A DNA stretch of 21,061 nucleotides, taken from positions 1-21,061 of the forward strand of contig JAJFGK010000151.1 of assembly GCA_021776195.1 (NCBI GenBank), written 5' to 3'. Below the pieces are notes generated by a model that did no database searches, had not been told where the DNA came from, and saw only the letters and a program-made list of their open reading frames with translations. Positions 3,966 to 17,912 of the stretch are shown in pieces. The stretch is from Kiloniellaceae bacterium. Lineage in GTDB: Bacteria > Pseudomonadota > Alphaproteobacteria > Kiloniellales > Kiloniellaceae. The position numbers and the translations under genes were made by a program. How positions within the stretch are numbered: position 1 is the stretch's first letter; every line of letters begins with the position of its first letter.

Positions 3966-4337
3966 AGTGCCCTCTCCTGGTTTCTTGCTCTTTGCCTTGC
4001 GCACCGCGGCCAACAACGGGTCGCGCGGTGCCGGCGCGCGTTTATAATCCAACTTCGGCCCCAGCCGTGATCCGTGACGGCGACCGAGATCATGTGGGAA
4101 AGAACGAGGAGACCACAAAAACCCTAGGCGGGCTACAACAATTTGTGAACGAAACTCCCCGTCGCCACATCATCTAGTGAAATCGCAAATGATTAATAAA
4201 AAGTTTATCGAAAAAATATGACGCGATTTCAGTTAGTTATGAAATCTCTCTGCGAATCGGACGCAAGCGACTCTGTGCGTGATCCAGTGGTGCTTACCGG
4301 CTACCCCATGTAGGGGGGACCACACCATCTCTAGGGG
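3966..4337. other. Intergenic region upstream of nrdJ
   Basis: A 372-bp stretch with no convincing gene. It contains the nrdJ ribosome site (just above 3965), two NrdR-box-like palindromes (4133-4180), an AT-rich stretch at about 4181-4250 unlike the rest of the window, and at 4287-4323 a possible weak hairpin (GTGGT/ACCAC outside CCCC/GGGG) just after the stop of the upstream flavoprotein gene. That hairpin has no T run, so it is a poor intrinsic terminator. I could not assign a sigma-70 promoter with confidence. Confidence 0.6.
4133..4180 (-). promoter_or_regulatory. Tandem NrdR-box-like operator pair upstream of nrdJ
   Basis: Two 16-bp imperfect palindromes, CTACAACAATTTGTGA (4133-4148) and CCACATCATCTAGTGA (4165-4180), match 11 and 12 of 16 positions of the NrdR consensus as I recall it (ACACWATATNTWGTGT). 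Their centres are 32 bp apart, about three helical turns, which is the arrangement usual for paired NrdR boxes. They lie 168-215 bp upstream of the nrdJ start, implying a long leader if they overlap the promoter. nrdR itself is not in the window. Confidence 0.5.
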
Positions 4338-6410
4338 TCAGACGAGACCCGGATCTTCGCGCAGAAATGGCGCCCGACCGGCTCTTTCCGCGGACCCGCT
4401 CGCGTCCATGTCACGGGCGGCGAGGTGTCCGGCGTGGACCGCCGCGGCGATCGTGGCCGGCGCATGGCAATCGCCGATGGCCTGGAGCTGGACGATGCCG
4501 GCGGCGGCCAGGGCCGCCGAATCGGCCAGGAGCTCCTGGTACAGCGCGTCGTTGGGCAGGCGGCTGGTCACCATCACCACCGTGGCGGCCTCCAGGGTCT
4601 CCCGGCGGTCGCTATAGATGCAGGCGATCTCGACCTGGCCGGCGCCGATTTCCATCAGGTCGCGCTGGGTCGCCAGGGTGACGCCGCGTTCCAGCAGCCG
4701 GGTTTGGATGCGCTCCATTTCCATGGTGTGGGTCGACCACTGGGAGGCATTGTCGGCCGGCGTCACCAGGGTGACCGCGAGGCCCTCGTCGCGAAGTTTC
4801 TCGGCCAGCACGCCGCCCAGGTAATAGTGGTCGTCGTCGTAGATCACCACCGGCCCCTCGGGGCGCGCGCCGTCGATGACGGTATCGGGCGTGATCACAT
4901 GGGGCAGCTCGCTGCCGGGGATGGCCTGGCGATGGGCGCGGCCGAAGCCGTCCTGGCGCCAGCGCGCGCCGGTCGCCAGCAGCACCTTGGGAAAGCCGAA
5001 CTCTCTGACGTTCTCCGCCGTCAGCCGGCTCGCCGGGTAGATCTCGACATTGACCATTTTCTGCAGCTGCTGGACCCGGTAGTCGCGCACCCGGCTCCAG
5101 GCCGACAGACCCGGCAGGCGGCATTCCCGGGCGACCCGGCCGCCCAGTTCCTCGCCGGCCTCGGCCAGGGTCACCCGGTAGCCGCGCTGGCCGAGCGCCC
5201 GGGCCGCTTCCAGCCCGGCCGGGCCGGCACCGACCACCAGGACGGCATCGTCCGAGCCCTTGGGTGCGATGGTCTCGGGGTTCCAGCCGCGGCGCCACTC
5301 CTCGCCCATGGTCGGGTTCTGGGTGCAGCGCATGGGGACCATGGTGTAGTCGCCGGAGACGCAGATGTTGCAGCCGATGCACTCGCGGATGTCCTCCAGG
5401 CGGCCCTCTTCGATCTTCTTTGGCAGGTAGGGGTCGGCGATCGAGGGCCGCGCCGCGCCGATGAAGTCGAGCACCCCGCGCTTGATCTGCGAGACCATGG
5501 TGTCGGGCGAGGTGAAGCGCCCGACCCCGACCACCGGCTTGCTGGTGACCTGCTTGACGAAGGCCACGTAGTCCTCCTGGCTGCCCTCGGGCCCAAAGCG
5601 CGAGGTCACCGAATCGTTGGGCCAGGCCGAGACGTTGACGTCCCACAGGTCGGGCAGCTCGGCCAGCATCTCGACCACCTCGCGGCCCTCGCCGGCGGCG
5701 GTGATGCCTTCGGGACCGAGCAGTTCGTCGACGGCAAAGCGCACGGCGACGGCGCAGCTGTCGCCGACCGCCTCCTTGGTGTCCTCCAGGACCTCGCGGA
5801 ACAGCCGCACGCGGTTCTCCAGCGAGCCGCCGTACTCGTCGCCGCGGTGGTTGTGGCGGCGCGACAGGAAGTGCATCAGCATGGTCAGGTCATGGCCGGC
5901 ATAGACGTAGACCAGGTCGTAGCCGGCCTTCTTCGAGCGCAGGGCGGCGGCGCGGTAGGTCTGGCGCAGGGCCTTGATGTCGGCCTTGTCCATGGCCCGC
6001 GCCTGGACCGGGTGATAGCTGTCGATCGGCGTGTGGGAGGGCGACATGGGCGCGATGCGGCTGAACAGGTTGGTCGCGGAATGGCCGTTGTGGACCAGCT
6101 CGATCCCGGCCAGGGCGCCATGCTCCTGGATCGCCTCGACGACCCGCGCATGGTTGGCGATATCGCTGTCGTCCCACAGCCGCCCCTCGGCGAAGGGCGA
6201 GACCTCGCCGTCGGGGCTGATCTCGACCTCCTCGGTACAGACCACCGCCCAGCCGCCGGCCGCCTTGACCCCGCGCATGGCCGCCAGCGTGCGCGGTTGG
6301 CGGTGGCCCATGCCGTTGCAGTGCGGCACCTGATAGAAGCGGTTCTTCGCCGTCACCGGGCCGATTTTCACCGGCTCGAAGAGAATGTCGTAACGCGGAT
6401 CGCGGCTCAT
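4338..6410 (-). CDS. Trimethylamine/histamine dehydrogenase-family FMN and [4Fe-4S] flavoprotein
   Basis: A 690-residue relative of trimethylamine dehydrogenase (TMADH), which oxidatively cleaves or deaminates amines and passes electrons to an ETF. The N-terminal FMN barrel starts MSRDPRYDILFEP, almost as in TMADH. Cys31 (VPHC) matches the Cys that binds FMN covalently. Tyr170 and His173 (YAGH) and Asp266 match the catalytic residues. The iron-sulphur cluster cysteines are C344, C347, C350 and C362. A Rossmann motif VVGAGPAGLEAA starts near residue 392. In the TMADH aromatic bowl Tyr60 is replaced by Glu61 and Trp355 by Asp354, while Trp264 is kept (Trp263). Trimethylamine is therefore an unlikely substrate and a primary or polar amine is more likely. 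The start at 6410 follows family alignment; a 14-bp duplication places a minicistron over it. Alternatives are a dimethylamine, dimethylglycine or N-methyl amino acid dehydrogenase. Confidence 0.88.
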   Translation of the reverse strand: MSRDPRYDILFEPVKIGPVTAKNRFYQVPHCNGMGHRQPRTLAAMRGVKAAGGWAVVCTEEVEISPDGEVSPFAEGRLWDDSDIANHARVVEAIQEHGALAGIELVHNGHSATNLFSRIAPMSPSHTPIDSYHPVQARAMDKADIKALRQTYRAAALRSKKAGYDLVYVYAGHDLTMLMHFLSRRHNHRGDEYGGSLENRVRLFREVLEDTKEAVGDSCAVAVRFAVDELLGPEGITAAGEGREVVEMLAELPDLWDVNVSAWPNDSVTSRFGPEGSQEDYVAFVKQVTSKPVVGVGRFTSPDTMVSQIKRGVLDFIGAARPSIADPYLPKKIEEGRLEDIRECIGCNICVSGDYTMVPMRCTQNPTMGEEWRRGWNPETIAPKGSDDAVLVVGAGPAGLEAARALGQRGYRVTLAEAGEELGGRVARECRLPGLSAWSRVRDYRVQQLQKMVNVEIYPASRLTAENVREFGFPKVLLATGARWRQDGFGRAHRQAIPGSELPHVITPDTVIDGARPEGPVVIYDDDHYYLGGVLAEKLRDEGLAVTLVTPADNASQWSTHTMEMERIQTRLLERGVTLATQRDLMEIGAGQVEIACIYSDRRETLEAATVVMVTSRLPNDALYQELLADSAALAAAGIVQLQAIGDCHAPATIAAAVHAGHLAARDMDASGSAERAGRAPFLREDPGLV

Positions 6411-14380: not shown

Positions 14381-14842
14381 ATGAAGCGCAGCTTGATCGA
14401 GACCGCGATGGGGGCTCTGGTCCTGTTCGTGGCGATCTTTTTCGTCGTCACGGCCTTTCAGAGCACCTCCGCCGGCGGCGCCCAGACCTACAGCCTGTTC
14501 ATCGAACTGGATGACGCCTCGGGCGTGACCCGTGGCACCGACGTGCGCATCGCCGGGGTCAAGGTCGGCGCCGTCGCGGAACAGCGGCTCGATCCCGAAA
14601 CGCTCTATGCCAAGGTCGAGCTGGCGATCGACCAACGCTTCAAGCTGGCCAAGAATTCCCGCACCCGGGTGCTGCCCGACGGGCTGCTGGGCGGCGTCTT
14701 CGTGAAGATCGAGCCCGGCAACGGCGAGGAGATGCTGGCCGCCGGCGAGACCATCGCCGATGCCGAAGGGCCGGTGAACGTCGTCGATCTGATCGGCAAG
14801 ACCATCTTTCTCGCGGTCGACAAGGCCGAGGGCGAGAACTGA
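14381..14842 (+). CDS. mlaD: MlaD-like MCE-domain lipid transport protein
   Basis: A 153-residue inner-membrane-anchored MCE protein. One N-terminal membrane segment (about residues 8-27) is followed by a single MCE domain (about 36-115) with the typical SGVTRGTDVRIAGVKVGAV and RVLPDGLLGGVFVKIEPG. MlaD forms a periplasmic hexamer in the MlaFEDB phospholipid transporter that keeps outer-membrane lipid asymmetry. The transporter genes mlaE and mlaF are absent here, as usual for this mlaD location in alphaproteobacteria. A second MCE gene lies 340 bp downstream on the same strand. Confidence 0.88.
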   Translation: MKRSLIETAMGALVLFVAIFFVVTAFQSTSAGGAQTYSLFIELDDASGVTRGTDVRIAGVKVGAVAEQRLDPETLYAKVELAIDQRFKLAKNSRTRVLPDGLLGGVFVKIEPGNGEEMLAAGETIADAEGPVNVVDLIGKTIFLAVDKAEGEN

Positions 14843-15182: not shown

Positions 15183-15674
15183 ATGGCCCCCGTCGTCCGT
15201 CGCGAACTATCGGAAGTCCTGCTCGGCGCGGCGATTATCGTGATCGCCGTGGCCTTCGTTGCCTTTGCCTTTCGCGATACCTCGGGCGATGCGCCGGCGG
15301 GCTACAGGGTGAGCCTGCAGGTCGACAACGCCTTCGGCCTCGAGCCGGGATCCGAGGCCCGCATGGCCGGCATTCCGGTGGGGAGGGTGGCCAGGCTGGA
15401 TCTCGATCCCAAGAGCTACTTCGCGCGTATCGTGTTGGATCTCGACCCGGGGGTCGAGCTGCCGACCGATTCCTCGGCCCGGGTGCTGCCCGATGGACTG
15501 GTCGGTTCCTCCTACGTCGAGTTGGAAGTCGGCGGCGAGCTGGACATCCTGCAGCACGACGATTCGATCCTCTATACCCAGGGCGCGGTCAATATCATCG
15601 ACCTGCTGGCCCGGGTCATCATGGGACCTAAAGTCGAGCCGGGGGGCGAGGAGCCCGCCGATGAAACCCAGTAA
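15183..15674 (+). CDS. Second MlaD-like MCE-domain protein
   Basis: A 163-residue protein with one N-terminal membrane segment (about 10-30) and one MCE domain (about 41-118): AFGLEPGSEARMAGIPVGRVARLDLDP, then RVLPDGLVGSSYVELEVGG. It has the same layout as the upstream MlaD but is clearly diverged, so it is an old duplicate or a partner subunit. Two MCE proteins could form a mixed ring or replace each other; that is inference. The ATG at 15183 has a strong ribosome site, AAGGGAGGG, independent of the element inserted upstream. Confidence 0.85.
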   Translation: MAPVVRRELSEVLLGAAIIVIAVAFVAFAFRDTSGDAPAGYRVSLQVDNAFGLEPGSEARMAGIPVGRVARLDLDPKSYFARIVLDLDPGVELPTDSSARVLPDGLVGSSYVELEVGGELDILQHDDSILYTQGAVNIIDLLARVIMGPKVEPGGEEPADETQ

Positions 15675-16513: not shown

Positions 16514-17704
16514 TCAAGCTTCGCGCCTGTCGATCCAAACCACATAAAGGGCGGCAGTTAGACCCAAGACCGCTGACAGCAGCATCATTCCGAGCATTCC
16601 ATAGGCCGCATTCTCCACCGTGAGGACCGCACCGGTGACCGCGGACATCGCGGCGCCGCCCGACACCGTGAGTGCCCCGGACAGGCCCGATGCGCTACCC
16701 GCCAGATTGGGCCGGACCGACATGGCACCGGAACTGCTGCTCGGCATGGTTATGCCGTTGCCGATGCCGAAAAAGACACAGGCGCCGAACAGGGTGACCT
16801 CGTGCAGGACCCCGGCCAGCAGGATCGACAGGCCCAGGATCAACCCACCACAGGCGACCAGCCGTCCGGCGATCATCATTGTCGTGAGCGCGTGGCGCGC
16901 GGCAAACCGACCGGCCAGGAAAGAGCCGAAGATGAAGCCGGCCGTAATGCTCCCCATGTAGACGCCGAGCCTTGCGGGCGAGATGTCGAACAGGACGGAG
17001 GCGACCAAGGGCGCGCCACCCAGGAAGGCATAGAAGCCGCCATTCGAGAAGGCCATGCAGAGGGCATAGCCCCAGAAACGGCGAGAACGAAACAGGGCCG
17101 GATAGGTGCTGAACTGTTTCCTGAGCGTCTCCGATGGGTTCTTGTTGGTCTCGTGCAGATCGAACCAGCTCAGAGCGAACGCCGCGCTGCCAAAGCACAG
17201 AAAAGCCCAGAAACTCGCGCGCCAGCCAAACAGCTCGTCCAAGGCACCCCCGAACATCGGCCCCAGCATGGGGGCGATGGCCCAGGCCATGGCCATGTAG
17301 CCCATCAGGCTGGCGGCTTTCTGGGTCCCGGACGTGTCGCGGATGACAGCCAGCGAAACCGCGTATCCGGAGGCGACCGCCGCCTGCATCATCCGAAAGA
17401 ACAGAAAGCTCGCGATGTCGGTTGCCAACGAACAACCAAGCGACGCCAGGCAGAAAATCGCCAATCCCGCCAGGATGACCGGCCGGCGCCCGAAGCGATC
17501 GGATAGAGGCCCCATGACCAGTTGCAGGGCCGCCGTCATGGCCGCGTAACCGGCGATGGATAGGTTCACGAGCGCATAGTCGGCCTCGAACTCGACCGCG
17601 ATGTTCGAGAGCGAGGGCAGGAACATGTTCAGCGAGACGACCGAAAGCCCGCTCAGCAGTATAAGCGTGGTAAGTCTCGGCGAAGTGACGGTGGCCTGGC
17701 TCAT
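16514..17704 (-). CDS. Bcr/CflA-type MFS drug efflux transporter
   Basis: A 396-residue, 12-segment major facilitator. Motif A is clear, GPLSDRFGRRPV (65-76), and the first segment contains NMFLPSLSNIA, close to the (D/N)M(Y/F)LP(A/S)LP signature of Bcr/CflA multidrug exporters. SAVTGAVL and GMLGMMLLSAVLG form the last segments. Such proteins export bicyclomycin, chloramphenicol, sulfonamides or other small molecules with proton exchange; the substrate here is not predictable. The ATG at 17704 is chosen over one at 17722 because GCGAGG lies 6 nt upstream of it. The gene is preceded by a leader ORF and an intrinsic terminator, so its transcription is probably attenuated. Confidence 0.88.
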   Translation of the reverse strand: MSQATVTSPRLTTLILLSGLSVVSLNMFLPSLSNIAVEFEADYALVNLSIAGYAAMTAALQLVMGPLSDRFGRRPVILAGLAIFCLASLGCSLATDIASFLFFRMMQAAVASGYAVSLAVIRDTSGTQKAASLMGYMAMAWAIAPMLGPMFGGALDELFGWRASFWAFLCFGSAAFALSWFDLHETNKNPSETLRKQFSTYPALFRSRRFWGYALCMAFSNGGFYAFLGGAPLVASVLFDISPARLGVYMGSITAGFIFGSFLAGRFAARHALTTMMIAGRLVACGGLILGLSILLAGVLHEVTLFGACVFFGIGNGITMPSSSSGAMSVRPNLAGSASGLSGALTVSGGAAMSAVTGAVLTVENAAYGMLGMMLLSAVLGLTAALYVVWIDRREA

Positions 17705-17749
17705 CTGATCCTCGCCGCCCATCAGCGACAGTTCCGCTGGCGAATGGGC

Positions 17750-17781
17750 AAAAAAAAACGCCCCCGATGGTGTCGGAGGCG
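17750..17781 (-). terminator. Intrinsic terminator in the leader of the efflux gene
   Basis: On the minus strand CGCCTCCGA-CACCA-TCGGGGGCG forms a 9-bp stem (one T-G wobble) with a 5-nt loop, followed at once by nine Ts (17758-17750). It is 45 bp upstream of the efflux start codon and downstream of the leader ORF, so it can stop leader transcripts before the gene. It would also end any transcript arriving from the sensor kinase gene. Confidence 0.9.
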
Positions 17782-17823
17782 CATGGGGTCTCGATTTGGA
17801 GTCCGTTACCGGTCCAAGCGCCT
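17777..17823 (-). promoter_or_regulatory. Candidate antiterminator pairing
   Basis: AGGCGC (17823-17818, the codons AGG CGC of the leader ORF) is the exact complement of GCGCCT (17782-17777), which includes most of the 5' arm of the terminator. The two pairings exclude each other. A second hairpin in between, TTGGA-CCG-GTAA-CGG-AC-TCCAA, has a GNRA-type loop over the leader stop codon, and GATTTGG before the leader ATG can pair with CCAAATC after it. This overlapping set of stems is what ribosome-controlled attenuators look like. Confidence 0.55.
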
Positions 17824-17853
17824 TTCTCCCACGACGACGACGGCGATTTTCAT
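17806..17853 (-). CDS. Leader peptide MKIAVVVVGERRLDR upstream of the efflux gene
   Basis: A 15-codon ORF: ATG at 17853, TAA at 17808-17806. The ribosome site GGGGAG lies 9 nt before the ATG. It holds four consecutive Val codons (GTC GTC GTC GTG) directly after ATC GCC, giving IAVVVV. It starts about 24 nt after the predicted transcription start, and its last codons overlap the candidate antiterminator. Val runs occur in ilv-type leader peptides; IAVV is also the arrest motif of the ErmAL1 class of macrolide-responsive leaders. Translation is not proven, but position, ribosome site and downstream terminator all fit. Confidence 0.65.
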   Translation of the reverse strand: MKIAVVVVGERRLDR

Positions 17854-17883
17854 AGCGGTAGGCTCCCCAAATCTGCGACCCGC

Positions 17884-17912
17884 ACGTTAGGTAGGGCCAT
17901 CCCCAGTGTCAA
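17884..17912 (-). promoter_or_regulatory. Sigma-70 promoter of the leader and efflux gene
   Basis: TTGACA (17912-17907) is a perfect -35 box, followed by a 17-bp spacer and TAACGT (17889-17884) as a weaker -10 box. Transcription would start near 17877, giving a leader of about 128 nt up to the end of the T run. It lies 53 bp after the stop of the sensor kinase gene. Confidence 0.7.

Follow-up and report, generated by a model that had tools for sequence, protein, structure and literature searches.

An ilvI-type leader, probably a branched-chain amino acid attenuator, precedes a putative efflux transporter gene in alphaproteobacteria

The DNA analysed here, called the window, is the whole stretch of 21,061 nucleotides of contig JAJFGK010000151.1 from a Kiloniellaceae bacterium. 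It carries a gene whose product passes the TIGR00710 model of the Bcr/CflA subfamily (score 230.7 bits, cut-off 200.9) and matches Pfam MFS_1 as well. The open reading frame spans 16514-17722 and opens at 17722; translation probably starts at ATG 17704, Met7 of the frame, because several homologues align only from that residue, and this ATG has its own GAGGA. Among proteins of solved structure, those closest to it in sequence are 'Multidrug resistance protein D' (2gfp) and MdfA; no solved relative listed for the transporter bears the name of a branched-chain amino acid (BCAA) transporter. The original prediction placed a ribosome-controlled attenuator upstream of this gene, and the promoter, the 15-codon leader ORF, the GGGGAG ribosome site and the terminator with its nine T are all present in the minus-strand sequence (Table 1). 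A terminator scan gives the stem 10 pairs, one of them G-U. Two adjacent small genes on the plus strand (14381-14842 and 15183-15674) each encode an MlaD domain. When the ORF lists of the window and of 21 loci were inspected by eye, no conserved neighbour gene was seen, BCAA-related genes included. At locus L011 an ORF (4194-5798) that resembles acetolactate synthase, judged by its first residues, is convergent to the MFS gene; it was not seen elsewhere.

Table 1. Elements of the leader and transporter locus in the window, and sites of leaders matched by Rfam RF02502 at other loci
Feature	Position	Strand	Details and basis
Promoter TTGACA-N17-TAACGT	17884..17912	-	-35 at 17912-17907, -10 at 17889-17884; sequence
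GGGGAG ribosome site of leader ORF	17863..17868	-	Nine bases 5' of ATG 17853; sequence
Leader ORF MKIAVVVVGERRLDR, 15 codons + TAA	17806..17853	-	Start ATG 17853, stop TAA 17808-17806
Presumed control codons, four Val (GTC GTC GTC GTG)	17830..17841	-	
Antiterminator 5' arm GGCGCUUGG	17814..17822	-	Within leader ORF
Hairpin UUGG-A-CCG-GUAA-CGG-AC-UCCAA	17796..17817	-	Loop holds stop codon
Antiterminator 3' arm CCAUGCGCC	17778..17786	-	Overlaps terminator 5' arm; pairing counts and folding
Intrinsic terminator	17750..17782	-	Stem 17782-17758, nine T 17758-17750
Bcr/CflA family MFS transporter gene	16514..17704	-	Pfam MFS_1, NCBIfam TIGR00710
RF02502 leader sites	L084:1503-1624, L106:1296-1417, L111:1295-1416, L228:2989-3109		

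As a lone sequence the leader region is statistically unremarkable. The terminator scan gave one terminator-like site where 1.6 are expected, a consensus scan returned no score for the promoter, and the fold of the leader has a z-score of -1.2, with 20 of 200 shuffles equally stable. An Rfam search of the window found nothing at gathering score. The best weak match, to RF02502 (18.3 bits, E 0.32), led to the link with ilvI described below. That the leader is real is shown instead by its conservation among orthologues.

We scanned genome contigs for the MFS protein and checked the DNA upstream of the resulting 67 loci with a script and partly by visual reading. The leader is present at 26 of the 67: 25 of the 28 loci with at least 56% identity have it, as opposed to one of the 39 below 56% (L043, Rhizobium pisi), these 39 having been screened by script and six of them also by eye. 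The three leaderless loci in the closer group (L003, L008 and L013) encode transporters of 65-76% identity and come from metagenome bins titled Gammaproteobacteria or Arenicellales, which points either to transfer of the gene without its attenuator or to mis-binned contigs. On a maximum likelihood tree of 85 transporters, 47 with the leader and 38 without, leader presence changes four times, compared with a mean of 28.2 for shuffled assignments; L065 (short), L066 and L067 were omitted from the tree, and the rows from L114 upward were found through their leaders, so that leader frequency there is biased. Control of the ilvI type is thus clustered on the transporter tree. The metagenome-assembled genome RHO1_bin_48 has two copies of the transporter (L004 and L007) with a leader before each, and the L004 copy, when translated, shows an internal stop.

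Twenty-three of these leaders were aligned (alignment A1), leaving aside L007, which comes from the same genome as L004, L012 and L019, where the script missed a leader seen by eye, and L043, whose leader is of rhizobial type. Conservation is strong in the 3' half, GGCGCNTGGACCGGTAACGG, and in the terminator. An exact GTTGAC-N18/19-TA promoter lies 57-60 nt 5' of the leader in 13 of the 23 rows; with one base changed it occurs in three rows at 58-61 nt and in one row at 78 nt, and in the remaining six rows none was found nearby.

The original prediction proposed that AGGCGC near the end of the leader ORF pairs with the 5' arm of the terminator, and this pairing is conserved. In the window GGCGCUUGG can pair with CCAUGCGCC, and across 35 aligned leaders 89.2% of the 315 cells of this helix are paired, versus 28-69% for slid versions; the terminator helix is paired in 96.1% of cells. 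Terminator and antiterminator are mutually exclusive, and the 5' arm of the latter lies inside the ORF, where a ribosome at the stop codon would cover it. The comparison of orthologues that the original prediction had put forward as a check came out well for the leader ORF, which is conserved, and for the stop-codon hairpin and terminator, which covary, but not for the antiterminator, in which no compensatory change was found (0 cells within the close family, equalled by shuffles, the core being nearly invariant). In the hairpin and terminator, 19 cells have changed on both sides; none of 500 shuffles matched this count of cells or the covariation score, and 92 of the 500 reached the number of double-changed pairs. 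When the RNA was folded with everything from the antiterminator arm onwards free, the minimum-energy fold kept the terminator in all five cases printed, so that read-through must rest on kinetics.

The leader peptide is likewise conserved. The stop codon keeps its place in the alignment in all 35 aligned rows, with no in-frame stop among the 11 preceding codons. Among the 31 leaders of efflux genes the peptide is 15 residues long in 22, and the leaders have in common the position of the Val block and an ending like R(M/L)(D/G)R. At the four positions of the block, codons -8 to -11 counted from the stop, 102 of 124 residues are Val, Ile or Leu, and the three residues interchange. Single-base codon differences at these positions are synonymous in a fraction of 0.64 of pairs, compared with 0.32 expected, while at codons -1 to -4 the fraction is 0.15, compared with 0.20 expected; the pairs are not independent, owing to shared ancestry. 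From this contrast we read selection on the peptide in the Val block and on the RNA at the end of the ORF. The leader thus has the short ORF of a ribosome-mediated amino acid attenuator, its block of presumed control codons being conserved at the amino acid level.

These counts bear on the drug response favoured by the original prediction, in which a macrolide or a similar drug arrests the ribosome at IAVV, in the manner of ErmAL1-class leaders, and so turns on the pump. The window peptide does contain IAVV, a string that we take to be the motif of ErmAL1-class macrolide leader peptides, and the gene downstream is from a drug-efflux family. Antibiotic-responsive RNA attenuators before resistance genes do exist, going by the accessible part of PMC5418344. 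However, IAVV occurs in only one of the 31 efflux-gene leaders and in none of four ilvI leaders, Val, Ile and Leu interchange at the Val block, and the same leader serves ilvI. The window gene is moreover not of the erm kind, and the Val block of its leader is shared with ilvI leaders. With the motif not conserved, we rejected arrest at IAVV as extremely unlikely.

The relation to ilvI emerged from genome surveys with covariance models. The first model, R1, was built from the 23 efflux-gene leaders only and run on 385 alphaproteobacterial genomes, where it returned 24 matches, 16 of them strong (E <= 6e-10). Twelve of the strong matches precede the gene for this MFS transporter, including the four training leaders L001, L002, L015 and L031. 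The other four, none of them in the training set, precede ilvI, the gene for acetolactate synthase, with E-values from 1.7e-17 to 5.7e-25 and a best score of 97.3 bits; their peptides are MHRLVVIVGKWRMGR, MKILVVVVGTTRMGR, MNNVVLIVGKQRMGR and MTGVVVILGNTRMGR. The eight weak matches (E 1e-5 to 1e-3) all lie before neither gene. Over 101 positions the window leader and the ilvI leader L181 are identical at 81. By sequence and structure, then, the window leader belongs to the family of ilvI BCAA leaders. This assignment covers the leader and not the operon, the gene downstream in the window being a Bcr/CflA MFS gene rather than one for BCAA synthesis. Where the original prediction preferred a drug over valine as the signal, the homology to ilvI leaders makes valine the better reading.

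A second model, R2, was built from 35 leaders, four of them from ilvI. It matched at E <= 0.001 in 95 of the 101 genomes searched in the order to which one ilvI-type genome belongs (four of them in R2 training), and the 30 best-scoring loci fetched all precede ilvI. Twenty further regions were fetched, 18 of them from the matches in this order, so that classification there covers the 30 best loci and these 18; the other two (L209 and L210) are second RF02502 matches from the rhizobial survey described below. Thirteen of the 20 lie before ilvI, one before the MFS gene, and six, all weak, before neither; among the seven with E >= 1e-7, six lie before neither gene and L218 lies before ilvI. Of the 61 genomes searched in the order that includes Pelagibius, 21 match, with one match each, and ten of these are training leaders; all 18 classified loci precede the MFS gene, and the other three were already known to do so. 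Among the Pelagibius-type genomes searched, no gene other than this transporter was found to have the leader. In the order of genome G007, only G007 itself, a training genome, matches among 11. One genome of the ilvI-type order, G620, has a strong leader match and, in addition, a diverged second leader (L208) before a gene whose MFS product is 54% identical to that of the window.

We also inspected 24 ilvI loci from 23 of the 24 genomes that have the leader before the MFS gene. The script found no ilvI leader at 17 of the 24. It called leaders at L106 and L111, both from R. pisi, and possible ones at L104 and L110; its calls at L089 and L100 were judged spurious. At L098, a Bradyrhizobium ilvI locus, there is a different leader rich in Val, Ile and Leu, MRNIITKLLIVVVPRHTAGDG, and the MFS gene of that genome has a leader of the window type (L021).

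The rhizobial leaders connect this family to an existing Rfam entry. RF02502, "Rhizobiales sRNA Atu_C8", matches the ilvI leader of R. pisi at 121.4 bits, a second acetolactate synthase leader at 94.1 and the leader of the R. pisi relative of the window MFS at 91.4; overall, its scores are 94-121 bits for ilvI leaders of R. pisi and S. meliloti and 85-113 for rhizobial leaders of this MFS gene. In a named S. meliloti record the leader is directly 5' of acetolactate synthase and ilvN. Seventy-seven of 150 genomes of the order of R. pisi match RF02502 at E <= 0.001, 23 of them passing the family cut-off, and 29 of the 30 loci fetched precede ilvI, the remaining one preceding the gene for this MFS transporter. 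By position, then, "sRNA Atu_C8" is the 5' leader of ilvI. In plasmid records of Rhizobium sp. CC1099, R. lusitanum and Phyllobacterium sp., which have no gene annotation at the locus, RF02502 leaders of 105-113 bits stand before MFS relatives of 51-53% identity. The window leader falls below the gathering score (18.3 bits against 50), while rhizobial orthologues of the locus pass it. The MFS leader of R. pisi agrees with the ilvI leader of its own genome at 96 of 114 positions and with the window leader at about 70 of 100, and this closer likeness suggests that transporter and local ilvI leader were either joined more than once or exchanged.

The design of RF02502 leaders is the same as that of the window leader, with peptides that are often longer. 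Among 30 diverged leaders from rhizobia (29 of ilvI and one of the MFS gene, with near-identical relatives included), the long helix formed by a leader's own arms has -25.2 kcal/mol, compared with -19.1 for foreign arms and -16.3 for a shuffled 3' segment, and own-arm pairing beats the median foreign-arm pairing in 30 of 30. Unlike in the window, this long-range helix has no visible overlap with the terminator stem, so that mutual exclusion is evident only in leaders of the window's type.

The filing of the rhizobial relative in Rfam as an sRNA raises the question of whether the terminated RNA, or the leader peptide, has its main role in trans as a small RNA or peptide, control of the transporter in cis being secondary. 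Precedent comes from S. meliloti, where rnTrpL and peTrpL act in trans, according to the accessible parts of PMC7143759 and PMC7298713. We consider such a main role very unlikely here, given that the position of the leader directly 5' of the transporter is conserved at the classified MFS loci, as is the overlap of terminator and antiterminator.

Taken together, the window most probably holds a ribosome-mediated BCAA attenuator, mainly for valine and of the ilvI type, that controls the putative efflux transporter; we hold this reading with considerable confidence. What is observed is the conservation of the leader, its homology to ilvI leaders, the selection for amino acids at the Val block and the conserved alternative pairings. 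In the mechanism we envisage, RNA polymerase would make a leader of about 127 nt and a ribosome would translate the leader peptide. With charged Val-tRNA (and Ile- and Leu-tRNA) ample, the ribosome would reach the stop codon and cover the GGCGCNUGG arm, and the terminator would form. With charged Val-tRNA, and perhaps that for Ile or Leu, in short supply, it would stall on the Val codons, GGCGCNUGG would pair with CCAUGCGCC, the terminator would be blocked and the transporter gene would be read. The spacing suits such a scheme: between the last Val codon and the AGG/TGG codon in which the antiterminator arm begins there are two codons, so that most of the arm would be expected to stay accessible while a ribosome is stalled at Val and to be covered by a ribosome at the stop codon. 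From these presumed footprints we infer the layout of a classical attenuator. The gene annotated as a drug pump would thus probably be controlled by amino acid shortage rather than by a drug, and its role would be tied to that shortage. Against this stands the lack of an obvious purpose for an exporter induced by amino acid shortage.

Two readings of the transporter's role remain. One is that the transporter imports BCAA, peptides or keto acids, or keeps a BCAA-related metabolite in balance, in which case its control is simple feedback; this is compatible with a BCAA attenuator, and Bcr/CflA would then be a family name only. The clustering of ilvI-type control on the transporter tree speaks for it, as does the fact that rhizobial members have the rhizobial ilvI leader, and the MFS models that the protein matches below their cut-offs include PunC (NF008270) and FslD (NF041041), importers by name. 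Yet the protein passes the cut-off of the Bcr/CflA efflux subfamily, and neither the names of the listed solved relatives nor the neighbourhood as seen by eye connect it to BCAA. We give import or balancing not quite an even chance.

Alternatively, the attenuator may be of the BCAA type and its signal an antimicrobial, namely an inhibitor of BCAA synthesis, of the Val-, Ile- or Leu-tRNA synthetases or of translation generally, which would then induce the very pump that removes it. This proposal, too, is compatible with the BCAA attenuator and concerns the role of the transporter. It would unite a sensor of the ilvI type with a drug-efflux family whose relatives include 2gfp and MdfA, and the S. 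meliloti trp leader peptide takes part in the control of multidrug resistance, by another mechanism (accessible part of PMC7298713). We regard this reading as possible but doubtful. A related and, in our estimate, unlikely scenario is that a BCAA attenuator was taken over for the transporter annotated as a multidrug pump, apparently more than once, and would sense inhibitors of BCAA synthesis or tRNA charging through the shortage they cause, answering with export.

The original prediction knew of no such leader before an alphaproteobacterial Bcr/CflA gene; the kind of leader described here is itself not new. A leader peptide of alphaproteobacterial ilvB was described by Vitreschak et al. 2004, as cited in the accessible part of PMC1273637, and we infer that the leaders found here are those. 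The ilvI/ilvB leader and that of the window share a Val-rich peptide of mostly 15 codons with an R-x-(D/G)-R ending, a stop codon in a hairpin loop, the GCGCAUGG/CCAUGCGC pairing and a terminator. The window differs in having RLDR rather than RMGR and in preceding a putative drug-efflux MFS gene rather than acetolactate synthase. As for the gene preceded, the prediction stands: among the titles and starts of abstracts listed from open-licence papers, we found no description of a BCAA-type leader before an efflux gene, the Bcr/CflA gene included, and nothing useful on Atu_C8. The S. meliloti trp leader (rnTrpL/peTrpL) is likewise an alphaproteobacterial amino acid attenuator tied to multidrug efflux; its tie, in the accessible parts of PMC7298713 and PMC7143759, is post-transcriptional and in trans, whereas the window leader stands immediately before the efflux gene.

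These results have consequences for annotation and for the family itself. Judged by its position, the Rfam entry "sRNA Atu_C8" represents the ilvI leader, and the same type of leader also stands before this MFS transporter. An efflux annotation need not mean a response to drugs. In alphaproteobacteria, a conserved clade of genes labelled "multidrug efflux" is apparently under BCAA control, and this gives experiments a way to find out what an uncharacterised family of transporters really does.
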